From Rhodopseudomonas sp. BR0M22 (GTDB taxonomy: Bacteria; Pseudomonadota; Alphaproteobacteria; Rhizobiales; Xanthobacteraceae): a DNA stretch of 64,000 bases. Positions 23,922 to 30,638 of the stretch are shown here, piece by piece (position 1 is the stretch's first letter; each line of letters starts with the position of its first letter). The notes under the pieces were generated by a model. That model made no database searches and was not told the origin of the DNA. It saw only the letters and a list, made by a program, of their open reading frames with translations. The stretch spans positions 1-64,000 of the forward strand of contig NZ_QUMK01000019.1 in NCBI RefSeq assembly GCF_010907035.1, in the 5' to 3' direction. The translations under genes and the position numbers were made by a program.

Positions 23922-24455
23922 CACGACATCCTTTCCTGCTCGAAGCCAAGCCCACCGCAGCGGACCGATGTCGGGAATACGGTGCCAATGGGATTTTCCT
24001 TCGCGGCCGGATACCGGTTGTGCGACCAATCGTATCACTTCGTAGAACACCGAGGTACGGGACACTCAAATCGGTACCCCTGTGTTGGATTCTGAACAAT
24101 TATCAATCGCAAGCCGCGTAGCGTTTCGAGGCACGACCGCTGCTGTTTACTAAAATGATAGTGTTTGGATCGCATGGTTTTGGGAATTTCCGGCATTGCT
24201 ACCTCATCATCGTGACTGCCGGATCCGCTGATACCCTCGGGTGACACGAGGGGCTCCTCATCCGCCTTCCGTCGGGCGTTGCGCGTTCGCGCTCCACGAA
24301 CCTGGAGCGGTCAGCATCGTCGAGTCGATGCGATCCCGAGCGATACGCAAAGCAAGACACGGGGGGCGCGATGCGGCCAGTGAACATCCATCGAAAGTAA
24401 TGCTGCGCACCGACCGGCTGTCAGGCCGCTTGGTCGATTTTTTGGAGTACAATTG
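23922..24455. other. intergenic region with no evident gene
   Basis: About 530 bases between divergent genes. A small hairpin CCCTCG/CGAGGG lies at 24234-24252, and GGAG at 24444-24447 is the ribosome site of the chemoreceptor. Short open frames here look random. The local composition is slightly less GC-rich than the flanks, as expected for a promoter region. Confidence 0.5.
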
Positions 24456-26147
24456 ATGCTGTCGCGACTGCGTATGACCATCGGACGCCGGATCTATCTC
24501 CTCATAGGACTCGGCTTCCTCGGCCTTCTCGGCATCACCCTCCTCGACTCCCGCGAGTTGGCGACCGGCCTGCAGCAGCAGAAACAGATTGAGCTCAAAC
24601 ACCTCGCCGAACTGGCAATCAGCTTCGTCAAGGACGAGTACGACGCCGCTCAGCGCGGCGAGATCAGCACCGACGAGGCGCAGAAGCGCGCCCAGGTGCG
24701 GATCTCCAGGCTGCGTTACGGCGGCAGCGAATACTTCTTCATCACCGACATGAACAGCCGGATGCTGATGCACCCGATCGCCAAGCAATTGATCGGACAG
24801 GATCAGTCGGGCGCCAAGGACCCGAACGGCAAACTGCTGTTCGTGGCGATGGTCGACACCGTGCGCCGCAATGGCAGCGGCTTCGTCGACTACGTCTGGC
24901 CGAAACCGGGCACCAATGAGCCGCAGCCGAAGCTGACCTATGTGGCCGGATTCGAGCCGTGGGGCTGGATCATCGGCACCGGCGTCTATATCGACGACCT
25001 CGAAGCCCAGACCTGGGGCGCGATGCAGCGCTCGCTGATCGCTGCCGCACTGGTGTTGCTGCTGACGATCCTGGCGTCGGTGGTGATCGCGCGGCGTATC
25101 ACCAAGCCGATCCACGCCATGACCGCAGCGATGAAAAGCCTCGCCGGCGGCCGGCTCGAGGTCGAGGTGCCCGGCATCGGCCGCCGTGACGAGATCGGCG
25201 AGATGGCGAGTGCGGTCGAAGTGTTCAAGGTTCACGCCCTCGAACGCCAGCGGCTCGAAGCCGAGCAGAAGGAGATGGAGGCGCGAACTGCCGCCGAGCG
25301 CAAGGCTCATGCCGCCCGCCTCGCCGATGCGTTCGAGCGCGCGATCGGCGAGATCGTCGAAACCGTCTCGGCGGCTTCCAACGAACTCGAAGCCTCGGCC
25401 ACCACCCTGACCCGCACCGCCGACCAGTCGCAGGATCTGGCAACCGCCGTCGCCGCCGCCTCCGAGGAGGCCTCCACCAACGTCCAGTCGGTGGCCTCGG
25501 CCACCGAGGAGATGAGCTCGTCGGTCAACGAGATCAGCCGCCAGGTGCAGGAATCCGCCCGGATCGCCCACGAGGCGGTGGATCAGGCGCGGCAGACCAA
25601 CGGCCGGGTCGAAGAACTCGCCAAGGCGGCGGCGCGGATCGGCGACGTGGTCGAACTGATCAGCAACATCGCCGGCCAGACCAACCTGCTGGCGCTCAAC
25701 GCCACCATCGAGGCGGCACGCGCCGGCGAAGCCGGCCGCGGCTTCGCCGTGGTGGCCGCCGAGGTGAAGCAGCTCGCCGAACAGACCGCCAAGGCCACCG
25801 GCGAGATCACCCAGCAGATCAACGGCATCCAGGCGGCGACCGACCAGTCGGTGGCGGCCATCAAGGAGATCGGCCAGACCATCGGCCAGATGTCGGAGAT
25901 CTCGTCGACCATCGCCGCCGCGGTGGAAGAACAAGGCGCGGCGACGCAGGAGATTTCGCGCAACGTCCAGCAGGCTTCGCTCGGCACCCAGCAGGTATCG
26001 GCCAACATTTCCGACGTGCAGCGCGGTGCCACCGAGACCGGCGCGGCTTCCGCCCAGGTGCTGGCGGCGGCAAAATCGCTGTCCGGCGACTCCGCCCGGC
26101 TCAAGACGGAAGTGTCGAACTTCCTGGAGTCCGTGCGCGCAGCGTAA
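24456..26147 (+). CDS. methyl-accepting chemotaxis protein with single Cache sensor
   Basis: Transmembrane chemoreceptor of 563 aa. It has TM1 (residues about 12-32), a periplasmic sCache_2 domain ([25 protein letters not shown] and [19 protein letters not shown]), TM2, a HAMP domain ([21 protein letters not shown]), and a long signalling domain whose tip reads [28 protein letters not shown]. sCache_2 sensors often bind short organic acids, but the ligand is not predictable. No C-terminal NWET/F tether is visible. The ATG at 24456 has GGAG eight bases upstream. A strong terminator follows. Confidence 0.92.
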
Positions 26148-26167
26148 CCCACCGACCTTCCTCGCTG

Positions 26168-26198
26168 AGGCCGGCGCCCGCGAGGCGCCGGCCTTTTT
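26168..26198 (+). terminator. intrinsic terminator after the chemoreceptor gene
   Basis: The 11-bp stem AGGCCGGCGCC / GGCGCCGGCCT with a CGCGA loop is followed by TTTTT, 20 bases past the stop codon. Confidence 0.9.
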
Positions 26199-26258
26199 GC
26201 TGAGCGAGCGCGACAGCAGGAATCGTGCGCCGCACTCCGTAACCGCACGAGGTTTTGG

Positions 26259-26274
26259 TAAAGCGGACGTTAAC
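26259..26274 (+). promoter_or_regulatory. possible CtrA-like box upstream of the PLP/ATP-grasp operon
   Basis: TAAA-GCGGACG-TTAAC differs by one base from the CtrA consensus TTAA-N7-TTAAC. It also lies in a near-perfect inverted repeat (TTGGTAA at 26255-26261 and TAACCAA at 26271-26277). It sits about 85 bases before the first start codon of the operon. One-site resemblance only. Confidence 0.35.
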
Positions 26275-26357
26275 CAAGCCGGTTTACAGCTCGGAACAGG
26301 TTCCACCGCTGCGCCCTCTCGGCGCGGCGGTTCAGCACCGGGCGAGGTGAACGAGCG

Positions 26358-27956
26358 ATGGCCCATCCCGGAAGTCTCATCCGCCAGGCGGCCGAGCGCC
26401 GGCCGCTTGGCGCCGCAGCCGACAAGCCGCAATCGCCGCTGCGTGAATTGTTCGCTCCGCCCGACCTGCTGCTGACCTGCGGCGGCGACACCCGAATCGA
26501 CATCGACCCCGCAACCGGCTGCAACGCCTATGGCTGCAGCCCCAGTCCCGCCCCCGAAATTCCCAGCTTCGCCTCCTGTACCGCCAGCACAATTTCGCCG
26601 CGCGGCTACGAGGCGGTCAAACGCGCACGCGATGCGCTGATGTCGTCGGCCATGCTGCACGGGCTGGTCGAGTGCTTCGACGCCCGGATCGAGGCGATGC
26701 GCGACGAACTCAAGGCGCTGCTCGGCGTGCCGCAGCCCGGCGCCGAGATCGTGTTCACATCGTCGGGCACCGACGCCCAACTGGTCGCGCTGGGGCTGAC
26801 CCGTGCGCTGCTCGGCGACCATCTCGTCACGGTCGTGGCGGGCGCGGATCAGACCGGCACCGGCACAGCCTTCACCGCGCACGGCCAGCATTTCGCCGCG
26901 CGCAGCGCCTGCGGCGTCGCCGCCACGCGCGGCGCACCGATTAACGGGCTCGGCCCGGTGCACAGCGTCAAGCTGCGTCTGCGCGATGCCGGCGGCCGCT
27001 TGTGCTCGCCCTCGTCGGTCGACGCCGAAACCCTCGAAATGGTCGAATCAGCGGTCGCGCAGGGCGCCCGGGTGATGCTGGAAGCGATGGACTGCTCCAA
27101 GCTGGGCTACGCGGCGCCCGGCGACCGCTGCCTCGACGAGATCGCCGCACGCTGGCCGGGACGGGTGCAGATCGTGATCGATGCCTGCCAGGCACGGCTC
27201 GGCAGCCAGCGGCTCGCCAGCTATCTCGACCGCGGCTTCATGGTGCTGCTGACCGGCTCGAAGTTCTTCGGCGGCCCCGCCTTCAGCGGCGCCGTGCTGG
27301 TCCCGCCGCAACTCGTCGGCCCGATCGGCGCACTGCCGCGACTGGCGCCGGGTCTGGCCGCCTATCTCGGCCGCAGTGACTGGCCGCTGCGCTGGCAAGC
27401 GTTGCGCGCGCAATTCCCGGCTCAGCCGAATTTTGGCGAGTGGCTGCGCTGGGAGGCCGCGCTCGAAGAGATCCGCGCCTATGCGGCCGTGCCCGTTCCG
27501 TTCCGCCGCGATATCATCCGCAAGCTCGGCGACGGCTTGGCCGGGCTGATCTCGGCCTCGCCGTCGGCGCGGCTGTTGCCGCCACAGTCGCGCGCCGCCA
27601 ACGCCGACGAGTTCGCGTTGCCGACGATCTTCGCCTTCACGCTTCACCGCGGCGGCAGCACGCTGTCGCTGGCCGAGTGCCGTGCCCTGCACCACGCACT
27701 CGCACACGGCACCGCGGGCCACGCCGCCTGCCTGCTCGGCCAGCCGGTCGGCTGGGGCGGACGCGGCGACGACAAGGAGGCTGCGCTGAGGCTGTGTATC
27801 AGCGCCGGCCATGTCGTCGACTCGTATGCAGATCCTGCCGTGCCGGACCGCATTCTCACCGATGCGGCCAGCGCGCTGACCACGCTCGAAACGCTGCTGC
27901 GGCAGCCCTCCCTGTTCCCCGACAACAATGCCGCCAAGGAGCGCCATGTCCACTAA
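26358..27956 (+). CDS. class V-type PLP-dependent enzyme of unknown function
   Basis: A 532-aa fold-type I PLP protein. TSSGTDAQLVALGL is the cofactor phosphate-binding turn, VIDACQAR carries the Asp that pairs with the pyridine nitrogen, and LLTGSKFFGGPAFSGAVLVP carries the Schiff-base lysine. The arrangement is that of class V aminotransferases and cysteine desulfurases, but no desulfurase active-site Cys loop is obvious, and the protein is about 130 residues longer than those enzymes. The N-terminal region contains several cysteines (LTCGGD, GCNAYGC, SFASC). It is first in a three-gene operon and overlaps the ATP-grasp gene by 11 bases. The reaction is unknown. Confidence 0.75.
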   Translation: MAHPGSLIRQAAERRPLGAAADKPQSPLRELFAPPDLLLTCGGDTRIDIDPATGCNAYGCSPSPAPEIPSFASCTASTISPRGYEAVKRARDALMSSAMLHGLVECFDARIEAMRDELKALLGVPQPGAEIVFTSSGTDAQLVALGLTRALLGDHLVTVVAGADQTGTGTAFTAHGQHFAARSACGVAATRGAPINGLGPVHSVKLRLRDAGGRLCSPSSVDAETLEMVESAVAQGARVMLEAMDCSKLGYAAPGDRCLDEIAARWPGRVQIVIDACQARLGSQRLASYLDRGFMVLLTGSKFFGGPAFSGAVLVPPQLVGPIGALPRLAPGLAAYLGRSDWPLRWQALRAQFPAQPNFGEWLRWEAALEEIRAYAAVPVPFRRDIIRKLGDGLAGLISASPSARLLPPQSRAANADEFALPTIFAFTLHRGGSTLSLAECRALHHALAHGTAGHAACLLGQPVGWGGRGDDKEAALRLCISAGHVVDSYADPAVPDRILTDAASALTTLETLLRQPSLFPDNNAAKERHVH

Positions 27957-29181
27957 GACCTCCCAGCCGGTCGCCGCCGAGCGGATCGGCTTCGCCCGCC
28001 TGACCAAGCGCGCTTTCGACGGCGAGAACCTGTACCCGCTGTGGCAGGCGCTGATGACCAAGGTCGACACCCGCACCGCGACCGCCGGGGAGCAGCTCGA
28101 CCTCGCGCTGATCACGCAGTTGTTCGGCCACAAGCAGGCCGGCCTGTCGGTGCAGACCGAGACGCTGAAGCAACAGCAACTGTTCCGTTCGCCTTGCGCC
28201 AGCGACCATCCGCGCCTGCGCGTGCTGGCGCTCGCCGCCGATATCGACATGGGCGGCAACACCCCGATCGAATTCCTGCTGCAGGACTCCGGAATTGAGC
28301 TGCTGACGCTGTACGTGCTCGACGGCATCCCGCTGCCCGATCCGCTGCCGGAGCACGACGTTGCGATCGTGATCGCCTCCGACTCCGACGAATGTCGCGC
28401 GGCGCTGGCTGCGATCGAGGCGCGCGCGGCCGACTGGCCGGCGCCGCTGCTCAACCCGCCGCATCTGATCCGGCATCTCGACCGCGACAAGCTGTATCGG
28501 CTGATCGGCGATGTCGAGGGGCTGGCGATTCCCGCCACGGTACCGGTCGGGCGCGACGCGCTGATGGCCGCCGCCAACGGCTCGGCGGCGCTGCCCGAGG
28601 TCGCCGGCGGCCTCGACTTCCCGATCATCGTGCGACCGCGCGGCTCGCACGCCGGCTTCGGCCTCGCCCGGATCGCCGACAGCGTCGCGCTGCTCGATTA
28701 TCTGCGCGACCGCCAGGAGAGCGATTACTTCATCGCCCGCTACGTCGACTACGCCAGCGAGGACGGCCAGTTCCGCAAGTATCGCGTGGTCGTGGTCGAC
28801 GGCAAGCCCTATGCCTGCCACATGGCGATCGCCGACCGCTGGGACATCTGGTACCTCAACGCCGGCATGGCCGAGGACGAGGTCAAGCGGCTGGAGGAAG
28901 CGGCGTTCTTCCACACCTTCGATTTCGGCTTCGCGCTGCGCCACAAGACCGCGCTCGAAGGCATGATCGAGCGGATCGGACTCGATTACTTCACCATCGA
29001 CTGCGCCCAGATGCCGAGCGGCGACCTCCTGGTGTTCGAGATCGACAACACTTCGGTGGTGCACGACATGGACAGCCCGGAGCTCTATCCCTACAAGCCG
29101 CCGCAGATGCACAAGATCTTCGACGCCTTCGCGTCGATGCTGGAGCGCCGGGTCGAATCCCGTCTGACGAGCGTGGCGTGA
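27946..29181 (+). CDS. ATP-grasp ligase (RimK/glutathione-synthase-like)
   Basis: A 411-aa protein whose second half is an ATP-grasp domain. HLDRDKLYRLIGDVEGLAIP opens the domain and PIIVRPRGSHAGFGLARI is the nucleotide-binding loop. ARYVDYASEDGQFRKYRVVV and LVFEIDNTSVVHDM contain the Mg-binding acidic residues. Such enzymes join a carboxylate to an amine through an acyl phosphate. The N-terminal 180 residues include an NTPIEFLLQDSGIEL pre-ATP-grasp fold. AAGGAG precedes the ATG inside the upstream gene, and the stop overlaps the decarboxylase start as GTGA. A peptide-like amide product is inferred, with substrates unknown. Confidence 0.82.
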   Translation: MSTKTSQPVAAERIGFARLTKRAFDGENLYPLWQALMTKVDTRTATAGEQLDLALITQLFGHKQAGLSVQTETLKQQQLFRSPCASDHPRLRVLALAADIDMGGNTPIEFLLQDSGIELLTLYVLDGIPLPDPLPEHDVAIVIASDSDECRAALAAIEARAADWPAPLLNPPHLIRHLDRDKLYRLIGDVEGLAIPATVPVGRDALMAAANGSAALPEVAGGLDFPIIVRPRGSHAGFGLARIADSVALLDYLRDRQESDYFIARYVDYASEDGQFRKYRVVVVDGKPYACHMAIADRWDIWYLNAGMAEDEVKRLEEAAFFHTFDFGFALRHKTALEGMIERIGLDYFTIDCAQMPSGDLLVFEIDNTSVVHDMDSPELYPYKPPQMHKIFDAFASMLERRVESRLTSVA

Positions 29182-30638
29182 GCGACGCAATCCGCGCCGG
29201 CGCGAATGCCGGCGCAACGAGCCTTGATCCTGACAATTGGGACGCGCTGCGCGCTGATGCGCATCGCATGCTCGACGACATGCTCGACTACATTGCCGGG
29301 GTGCGCGACCGGCCGGTGTGGCAGCCGATCCCGCCGAAGGTCCGCGCCGGCTTCGCCGAGCCGCTGCCGCGCGGCGGCACGCCGCTGCCGGAGGTCTATC
29401 GCCGCTTCACCGAGGAGATCGCGCCCTACGCCACCGGCAACGTCCATCCCGGTTTCATGGGCTGGGTGCACGGCGGCGGCACCGCGGTCGGCATGCTGGC
29501 CGAAATGCTGGCGGCCGGCCTCAACGCCAATTGCGGCGGCCGCGATCACATCGGCATCGAGGTCGAGCGCCAGATCGCACGCTGGCTGCGCGAATTGTTC
29601 GGCTTTCCGCAAACCGCCAGCGGCGTGTTCGTCACCGGTTCGTCGATGGCCAATTTCATGGCGCTGCTGGTGGCGCGCACCGCCACGGTCGGTCCGCAAG
29701 TGCGCGAAGGCGGCCTGCAGGGCGAACGACTCACGGCTTACGCGTCCGCAGCGGTGCACGGCTGCGTGGTGCAGGCCGCCGATTTGGCCGGACTCGGCCG
29801 CGGCGCGCTGCGGCGGATTCCGTTCGGAAAGGACCACCGCATCGATCTCGCCGCGCTGAAACGGCGGATCGCGGAGGACCGCGCCGCCGGCTGTCGGCCG
29901 TTCCTGGTGACCGGCTCGGCCGGCACCGTCGATGTCGGCGCGATCGACGATCTATCGGCGCTTGCCGCGCTGTGCCGCGACGAAGGGCTGTGGTTTCACG
30001 TCGACGGTGCCTACGGCTCCCTAGGCATGCTGTCCGACGACATTGCGCCGAAGCTGAAGGGACTGTCGGAGGCGGATTCGATCGCGCTCGACTTCCACAA
30101 ATGGGGCCAGGTCAATTACGACGCCGGCTTCCTGATCGTCCGCGACGGCGAGCAGCACCGCGACACGTTCGCGGCGCCGGCCGCTTACTTGCGCCGCGAG
30201 ACTCGCGGCCTCGCCGGCGGCTCGCCCTGGCCGTGCGACTACGGCCCCGACCTGTCGCGCGGTTTTCGCGCGCTGAAGACCTGGTTCACGCTGAAGACTT
30301 TCGGCGCCGACCGGATGGGCGCGATGATCGCCCAGACCTGCAAGATTGCGCGCTATCTGGAAGCCCGCGTGCAGCGCGAGCCGGAGCTGGAGATGCGGGC
30401 GCCGGTGACGCTGAACATCGTCTGCTTCCGCTATCGCGCCGCGCCGGACGTGATGGACGCGCTCAATGCCGAAATCGTCGCGGATTTGCACGAGTCCGGC
30501 ATCGCCGCGCCATCCTCGACCACGATCGACGGCGCCTTGGCGATCCGCGCCGCGATCGTCAACCACCGCACGACGTTTGCGGATGTCGACAGGATGGTCG
30601 ATGCGGTGCTGCAATTCGGAGCGGAGCGGGTAGGCTGA
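29178..30638 (+). CDS. PLP-dependent amino-acid decarboxylase (group II, DDC-like)
   Basis: A 486-aa fold-type I decarboxylase related to aromatic-L-amino-acid and glutamate decarboxylases. GNVHPGFMGWVHGGGT and CGGRDHIGIEVERQIARWL are conserved N-terminal segments, TGSAGTVDVGAIDDL is a family hallmark, WFHVDGAYGS carries the cofactor Asp, and the PLP lysine is in ALDFHKWGQVNYDAG. The GTG start overlaps the preceding stop (GTGA), so it is translationally coupled. It would make an amine, which the ATP-grasp enzyme could use or which could come from its product. An amino-acid preference cannot be read from the sequence. Confidence 0.85.
   Translation: MSDAIRAGANAGATSLDPDNWDALRADAHRMLDDMLDYIAGVRDRPVWQPIPPKVRAGFAEPLPRGGTPLPEVYRRFTEEIAPYATGNVHPGFMGWVHGGGTAVGMLAEMLAAGLNANCGGRDHIGIEVERQIARWLRELFGFPQTASGVFVTGSSMANFMALLVARTATVGPQVREGGLQGERLTAYASAAVHGCVVQAADLAGLGRGALRRIPFGKDHRIDLAALKRRIAEDRAAGCRPFLVTGSAGTVDVGAIDDLSALAALCRDEGLWFHVDGAYGSLGMLSDDIAPKLKGLSEADSIALDFHKWGQVNYDAGFLIVRDGEQHRDTFAAPAAYLRRETRGLAGGSPWPCDYGPDLSRGFRALKTWFTLKTFGADRMGAMIAQTCKIARYLEARVQREPELEMRAPVTLNIVCFRYRAAPDVMDALNAEIVADLHESGIAAPSSTTIDGALAIRAAIVNHRTTFADVDRMVDAVLQFGAERVG

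Follow-up and report, generated by a model that had tools for sequence, protein, structure and literature searches.

A conserved trio of PLP enzyme, ATP-grasp ligase and decarboxylase genes in Rhodopseudomonas and Bradyrhizobium, with a possible role in decorating the flagellar filament

The window analyzed here is a 64,000-nucleotide stretch of Rhodopseudomonas sp. BR0M22 (contig NZ_QUMK01000019.1, positions 1 to 64,000 of the forward strand), in which three adjoining genes, referred to as O1, O2 and O3, encode a putative pyridoxal 5'-phosphate (PLP) enzyme, a predicted ATP-grasp ligase and a PLP-dependent decarboxylase, respectively (Table 1). The reading frames were confirmed in the window sequence and are tightly packed, with O1 and O2 sharing 11 bases and O2 and O3 sharing 4. 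An earlier sequence-only reading had taken these overlaps to mean that the genes act together, and had proposed a small peptide-like or amide metabolite as their product. The trio is examined here for the enzymes it encodes, its conservation in other genomes and its recurring position near flagellar genes.

Table 1. Features of the trio locus (positions are those of the window)
Feature	Position	Strand	Basis
O1, class V-like (fold type I) PLP enzyme, predicted; 532 aa, ATG start	26358..27956	+	reading frame, alignment, model
O2, ATP-grasp ligase, predicted; 411 aa, ATG start	27946..29181	+	reading frame, predicted fold, conserved residues
O2 N-terminal helices, residues 16-77	27991..28176	+	DSSP of model; relatives have tetratricopeptide repeats here
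O3, group II PLP decarboxylase; 486 aa, GTG start; Lys308 codon 30099-30101	29178..30638	+	Pfam
Chemoreceptor gene (single Cache: sCache_2, HAMP, MCPsignal)	24453..26147	+	Pfam
Terminator-like hairpin with U-tract, in the gap between chemoreceptor gene and trio	26167..26199	+	minimum free energy -27.6 kcal/mol, z -3.56
Upstream element GTAAA-N7-TTAACCAAG-N3-GTTTA, centre about 86 bp before the O1 start	26258..26286	+	exact match

O1 scores 16.5 bits against the Pfam model Aminotran_5, below the curated cut-off of 21.5, and was for this reason rejected as a member of that family by sequence model; no NCBIfam match was found at E<=0.01 and no PDB sequence match at E<=0.1. An AlphaFold2 model built from the window protein and its relatives has a mean predicted local distance difference test (pLDDT) score of 87.1, and Foldseek sets it beside group II decarboxylases, a carbon-sulfoxide lyase, PvdN and SufS, to which it is about 15% identical. 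Across 19 aligned sequences the invariant residues are Ser136-Gly-Thr, Asp275, Cys277, Gln278, Ser301, Lys302 and Arg478. Asp275 (codon 27180-27182) would contact the PLP pyridine, and Lys302 (codon 27261-27263) is put forward as the Schiff-base lysine, although this choice is an inference, Lys248 being equally invariant in the same alignment. On its predicted fold together with a conserved lysine and aspartate, O1 would be placed among the fold-type-I PLP enzymes. In this it resembles the group of cysteine desulfurase, carbon-sulfoxide lyase and PvdN, but differs from them in its length of 532 aa, its roughly 15% identity and its own set of invariant residues. A short stretch surrounding the DACQ motif is common to O1 and a cysteine desulfurase, with an E-value of 0.17 that is not significant alone. 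The sequence-only reading had described an oversized class V-type PLP enzyme outside the named families, and O1 indeed fits no Pfam or NCBIfam model tested. In one further stretch (L184:8105-10309; stretches and genomes are cited by their L and G numbers), an O1 relative carries about 150-180 additional N-terminal residues without a Pfam match and is unlinked to O2 in its genome.

Neither Pfam nor NCBIfam yields a match for O2 at E<=0.01, and its assignment relies on the predicted structure. The AlphaFold2 model, again built from the window protein and relatives (mean pLDDT 85.5), adopts an ATP-grasp fold, with ArgX/LysX, RimK, D-Ala-D-Ala ligase and ITPK1 as Foldseek neighbours. Asp352 and Glu365 are invariant in both alignments, of 20 and 17 sequences, and are candidate Mg/ATP ligands; on the predicted fold and these conserved acidic residues O2 may be classed as an ATP-grasp enzyme, which agrees with the class first given to it. 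The amino-acid ligases RimK, LysX and ArgX are among its closest solved folds (3vpb, 3vpd, 5zct); RimK acts on ribosomal protein S6. By sequence, RimK models do not match the window O2 at E<=0.01, and the O2 relative in L187 reaches 18.8 bits against the RimK model TIGR00768 where the cut-off is 143.4, so membership of that family by sequence model was rejected. The N-terminal helices of O2 correspond to a region in which relatives carry tetratricopeptide repeats (TPR): Pfam detects these in L208, above the cut-off, and in L212, with weak hits in L187 and L195 that stay below it. Family names are also lacking for a wider set of ATP-grasp proteins resembling O2 (L060-L068, L208, L211, L212). 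Three stretches from the window's family (L061, L062, L063) place an O2-like ATP-grasp gene after a formyltransferase-like gene, named by eye, on the same strand.

O3 scores 199.9 bits against Pfam Pyridoxal_deC (cut-off 27, E 6.9e-59), with the Ruminococcus gnavus tryptophan decarboxylase 4obu as its best PDB relative (E 4.2e-63). His194, Asp276, Lys308 and Tyr337 are invariant over 11 sequences, and Tyr337 aligns with what we take to be the loop tyrosine marking true decarboxylases as opposed to aldehyde synthases. The Pfam score and the catalytic lysine, aspartate and histidine identify O3, by sequence, as a group II decarboxylase, the class to which it had originally been assigned. O3 falls under the NCBIfam equivalog cut-offs for diaminobutyrate (DABA), PanP, MfnA, tyrosine, histidine and glutamate decarboxylases, the best being 181.6 bits against a required 900. 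In methanofuran synthesis, MfnA is a tyrosine decarboxylase and MfnD an ATP-grasp tyramine-glutamate ligase, and the trio likewise has a decarboxylase that could feed an ATP-grasp ligase. Unlike MfnA, O3 scores far under the MfnA cut-off (73 bits against 299.4) and was rejected as a member by sequence model.

The scan of genomes for O1 relatives returned 205 stretches, of which the best 80 were kept for locus counts; these derive from Rhodopseudomonas and Bradyrhizobium, apart from a few whose genomes carry less exact names. The order O1-O2-O3 on one strand is found in 77 of the 80 loci, which argues that the arrangement is not due to chance. As a rough measure, gaps larger than 80 bases separate O1 from O2 in 2 of these 77 and O2 from O3 in 4. 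The remaining three loci (L079, L100, L111) hold O1-O2 only, and in L100 and L111 the sequence stops just past O2. O2 matches at E<=1e-3, distant and weak ones included, occur in 60 of 248 genomes and 14 of 47 genera in a search of the window's family. O1 has matches in 26 of 398 Pseudomonadota genomes; one weak match (G595) was set aside, and the 25 strong O1 genomes were used for partner counts. O2 is present at E<=1e-40 in 19 of these 25, and all three genes are adjacent in 16; in G583, O1 and O2 are on separate contigs.

Three gene orders are seen among relatives. O1-O2-O3 is the order of the window's family, while O2-O1-O3 is found on a Rhizobium tumorigenes plasmid (L036) and in two stretches from the window's taxonomic order (L182, L183). 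O3-O2-O1 is found in L187, L192, L193 and L195-L200. All of these but L187 belong to one class other than the window's; L187 probably comes from a third, since its genome is absent from the 78 genomes of the L195 class. The trio thus occurs in at least two bacterial classes. In L219:9624-12278, O3 and O2 are fused into a single frame of 884 aa with O1 downstream. Partial sets also exist among the fetched stretches, namely O2-O3 without O1 (L047, L053, L209), O3-O2 without O1 (L054, L055, L204), O1-O2 without O3 (L045) and O2 alone. In every full-trio relative compared, O1 is the least conserved member. O1-O2-O3 is a conserved linked unit; the idea that the three overlapping genes act together is borne out by the 77 loci and by the O3-O2 fusion, and the neighbourhood comparison did not find the genes generally separated in other genomes.

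In further comparing the partners of O1 and O2, exchanges are seen on both sides. In the six of the strong O1 genomes that lack O2, O1 or O1-O3 is adjoined by another ATP-grasp gene (assigned by Pfam in four cases and by clustering in the other two): a tandem cyanophycin-synthetase-like protein follows O1-O3 in L186 and L188, a sugar-transfer-associated ATP-grasp follows O1 in L185, and a D-Ala-D-Ala-ligase-like gene is divergent from O1 in L189-L191. O2 in turn adjoins a SerC-like class V aminotransferase in Paraburkholderia (L033:7977-10342), in G561 (L207:6700-9062) and in G250 (L206:6561-8940), with a 4-base gene overlap in L033 and L207. This SerC-like partner is below the TIGR01364 cut-off, and in G561 above that of PRK12462, another phosphoserine-transaminase model; canonical SerC is additionally encoded elsewhere in G561 and G250. 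As partners are swapped in both directions, the pairing of a PLP enzyme with an ATP-grasp ligase tends to persist even when the families differ.

The setting of the trio in other genomes points toward motility. Of the 80 loci, 69 are flanked by genes for flagellin, FlbT, FlaF, FlgK, FlgL or FlgE, and nearly all of these 69 come from Bradyrhizobium; the profiles used for the flanks were derived from loci of the family itself, with names given by eye, and Pfam confirmed FlbT and one flagellin. The remaining 11 loci are 10 from Rhodopseudomonas and the short contig L142. In the Bradyrhizobium layout, the trio has flgE-flgK-flgL and a putative glycosyltransferase (named by eye, with no Pfam match) on one side and flbT-flagellin-flagellin-flaF on the other. 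Two more distant relatives show similar placements. L195, from another class, has O3-O2-O1 directly behind flagellin, FlaG, FliD, a 106-aa frame with no Pfam match and FliS, all on one strand, and in L220, from another order, a flagellin gene and FlbT lie between O1 and O2-O3. Among 21 genomes outside the window's family, 3 have a listed Flagellin_N match no more than 10 kb from the trio or O1, where 0.30 would be expected (nominal P 0.003); the corresponding values among the flagellin matches listed are 2 against 0.17 at 5 kb (P 0.012) and 4 against 0.44 at 15 kb (P 0.0008), all of these P values treating genomes as independent and the distances having been picked after the data were seen. 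The presence of flagellin was rejected as support: 24 strong O1 genomes out of 25 have it (the exception, G498, is 68% complete and one of the nine O2-bearing genomes of the L195 class), but so do 329 of the 398 genomes in general, which makes it weak evidence. In a separate stretch, L051:3668-9487, two distinct O2-type ATP-grasp genes stand between flagellin genes and flbT-flaF, with no O1 or O3 in the stretch.

In Rhodopseudomonas the trio sits elsewhere, behind a chemoreceptor gene that is probably transcribed separately from the trio; such genes flank 7 of the 10 Rhodopseudomonas loci. The hairpin lying between the two was missing from the output of the consensus scanner. The upstream element closer to O1 is kept in 9 aligned Rhodopseudomonas sequences, with TTAACCAA invariant and the rest varying. 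When up to 2 mismatches are allowed, the window yields just one match more, which is this site read in reverse; 0.13 would be expected. In the genome, GTAAA-N7-TTAACCA with up to 1 mismatch has 10 matches compared with 5 for a reversed control pattern, and 2 of the 9 other matches are flagellar: one precedes fliL, and the other, which falls within the called start of a divergent TPR-GT41 gene, precedes a flagellin gene by 425 bp. Scoring 435 kb with a strict position-weight matrix for this footprint gave no second real site; as this matrix was too narrow, the core GTTAACCA and the genome-wide pattern were searched for instead. The core occurs 8 times in the 435-kb sample, which deliberately took in the flagellar contig, and these occurrences are upstream of or at the trio, flagellin, flgI and fliL, and in four other places. 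TTAACC alone is no denser on the flagellar contig than elsewhere. The CtrA half site has been published as TTAACCAT (PMC6180460, PMC3692519); the trio has TTAACCAA. The likeness between the upstream element and the sites at flagellar operons is suggestive only.

Contig C82 of the window genome has, at about 99675-118775 (L235-L236), genes for a large flagellin, FlbT, a divergent TPR-GT41 glycosyltransferase and a nucleotidyltransferase, together with short-chain dehydrogenase, thiamine pyrophosphate (TPP) enzyme, E1 dehydrogenase, SIS and epimerase genes. From its gene content this region is a probable flagellin glycosylation island, and the flagellin of this genome is probably glycosylated, as a TPR-GT41 glycosyltransferase and sugar-type genes lie beside it.

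The interpretation favoured here, held tentatively as a possibility short of an even chance, is that the trio is a self-contained amide-forming module which decorates the flagellar filament, through flagellin or its glycan. O3 would decarboxylate an amino acid to an amine, O2 would use ATP to activate a carboxylate and couple the amine to it, and O1, as an amino-acid-binding PLP enzyme, would prepare or trim one of the building blocks. The TPR-like N-terminal part may guide O2 to flagellin, by analogy with the TPR domain of FlmG in Caulobacter. What is observed is that the genes are linked, that other ATP-grasp enzymes can take the place of O2 and that the trio is tied to flagellar loci in some lineages, and the folds of O1 and O2 are predictions; the amine, the carboxylate that it joins, the part played by O1, the order of the steps, the attachment to flagellin and the choice between glycan and protein as target are inferred. 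A more specific version appears improbable, in which the TPR-like part of O2 would bind flagellin and the enzyme would couple the amine or amino acid supplied by O3 and O1 straight to flagellin carboxyls, much as RimK acts on ribosomal protein S6, as a modification other than glycosylation.

An amide-linked amine or amino-acid substituent of the filament is proposed because of the precedents of SfmE and FlmG, the TPR in O2 relatives and a suggestion of glycosylation in B. diazoefficiens. In Shewanella oneidensis, deletion of the ATP-grasp gene sfmE (SO_3265) lowers flagellin mass and soft-agar spreading, and the protein is needed for full flagellin modification (PMC3765264). SfmE, at 412 aa, is close in size to O2 (411 aa) and shares with it the ATP-grasp class. 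Its partners in sfmABCDE differ from the trio, as they are a PseI-like protein, a TPP enzyme, a reductase and a methyltransferase, and the text mentions neither a PLP enzyme nor a decarboxylase (PMC3765264). Caulobacter FlmG is described as a flagellin-modifying enzyme with a TPR domain and a GT-B domain (PMC7591256). The TPR part is its likeness to the relatives of O2; its catalytic part is a glycosyltransferase, in contrast to the ATP-grasp of O2. A review suggests that B. diazoefficiens may glycosylate its subpolar flagellum (PMC8429497). Among work on Bradyrhizobium motility, a flagellar phylogeny paper does not mention a decarboxylase in the portion available (PMC6406911), and an RpoN paper on strain DOA9 (PMC13207237) reports a predicted RpoN site at an ATP-grasp gene that could not be tied to the trio.

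A number of observations weigh against decoration of the filament. TPR are not detected by Pfam in the window O2, in L042 or in L220. No listed flagellin match is near the Rhodopseudomonas trio; the same is true within 10 kb in 18 of the 21 outside-family genomes, several of which are on short contigs, and among the nine O2-bearing genomes of the L195 class only L195 has flagellin adjacent. The 69 flagellar placements, being nearly all from one genus, may reflect a single event. As for the upstream core, 4 of the 8 occurrences are non-flagellar, in a sample so composed as to include the flagellar contig. Other kinds of gene also adjoin the trio: TetR genes just before it in two lineages (L183:5925-6602, L193:4975-5604, L196:4340-5062), an EamA transporter gene just before it in one genus (L197:756-1631, L198:11426-12301, where chemoreceptor genes are on the other side) and ABC transporter genes directly after it in L187:9660-12710. 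Such neighbours fit a transported compound at least as well.

This makes a free metabolite a close rival. The trio would, in that case, produce a diffusible small amide without a nonribosomal peptide synthetase (NRPS), O3 supplying the amine, O2 joining it to an amino or organic acid and O1 tailoring the product, with the placement among motility genes being regulatory or accidental; this is possible but doubtful. The enzyme set is of a suitable kind, the sporadic distribution (O2 in 9 of the 78 genomes of the L195 class) is like that of an accessory pathway, and the fungal E-64 pathway has been described with ATP-grasp and PLP-decarboxylase terms in the available extract of PMC12568646. In comparison with NRPS-independent ATP-grasp amide clusters, the ligase and building-block enzymes are present, and transporter genes were seen beside the trio only in L187, L197 and L198. 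The adjacent transporters and regulators vary by lineage; none was seen beside the trio in the arrangement usual for Bradyrhizobium and Rhodopseudomonas, in which it adjoins flagellar or chemotaxis genes. The statement in the sequence-only reading that no transport gene is attached is therefore true of the window but not of those three relatives. Amine and amide chemistry remains the natural reading of the enzymes, as first proposed, while a metabolite as the end product is less supported: decoration of the filament is favoured because trio relatives lie in flagellin clusters in two classes and because the upstream core recurs at flagellar operons.

A role in modifying some other surface structure, or in making a compound that stays inside the cell, is unlikely; examples would be a polysaccharide substituent, a solute or part of a cofactor, with an indirect tie to motility. 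The distance of the trio or O1 from flagellar genes in many lineages would agree with such a role, as would the existence of O2 alone or with a SerC paralog, but no recurrent polysaccharide or cofactor neighbour was seen in gene lists that were read by eye and partly scanned with Pfam. Least probable is a coincidental flagellar link, arising from one ancestral insertion in the Bradyrhizobium flagellin cluster and two chance placements. The predominance of a single genus among the 69 placements and the assumptions behind the nominal P of 0.003 speak for it; the placements in L195, directly behind fliS, and L220, around flbT, are immediate and go beyond mere proximity within 10 kb, and a related upstream element exists in Rhodopseudomonas although the trio sits elsewhere there. 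A phage origin was rejected, as PHROGs gave no match for O1 or O2.

No published description of the trio was found in a full-text literature search confined to open-licence papers, and for that reason this silence is no proof of novelty; nor did the family libraries and the literature searched yield a match to a characterized pathway. O1 and O2 meet no family model tested, yet 205 stretches encode an O1 relative and the trio occurs in at least two classes. If the product were a free amide, the trio would represent an NRPS-free route that is undescribed in the literature searched. If the trio instead decorates flagellin, rhizobial and photosynthetic bacteria would be using a filament chemistry derived from decarboxylated amino acids, which, as a matter of speculation, may have a bearing on how plants perceive such flagellins.

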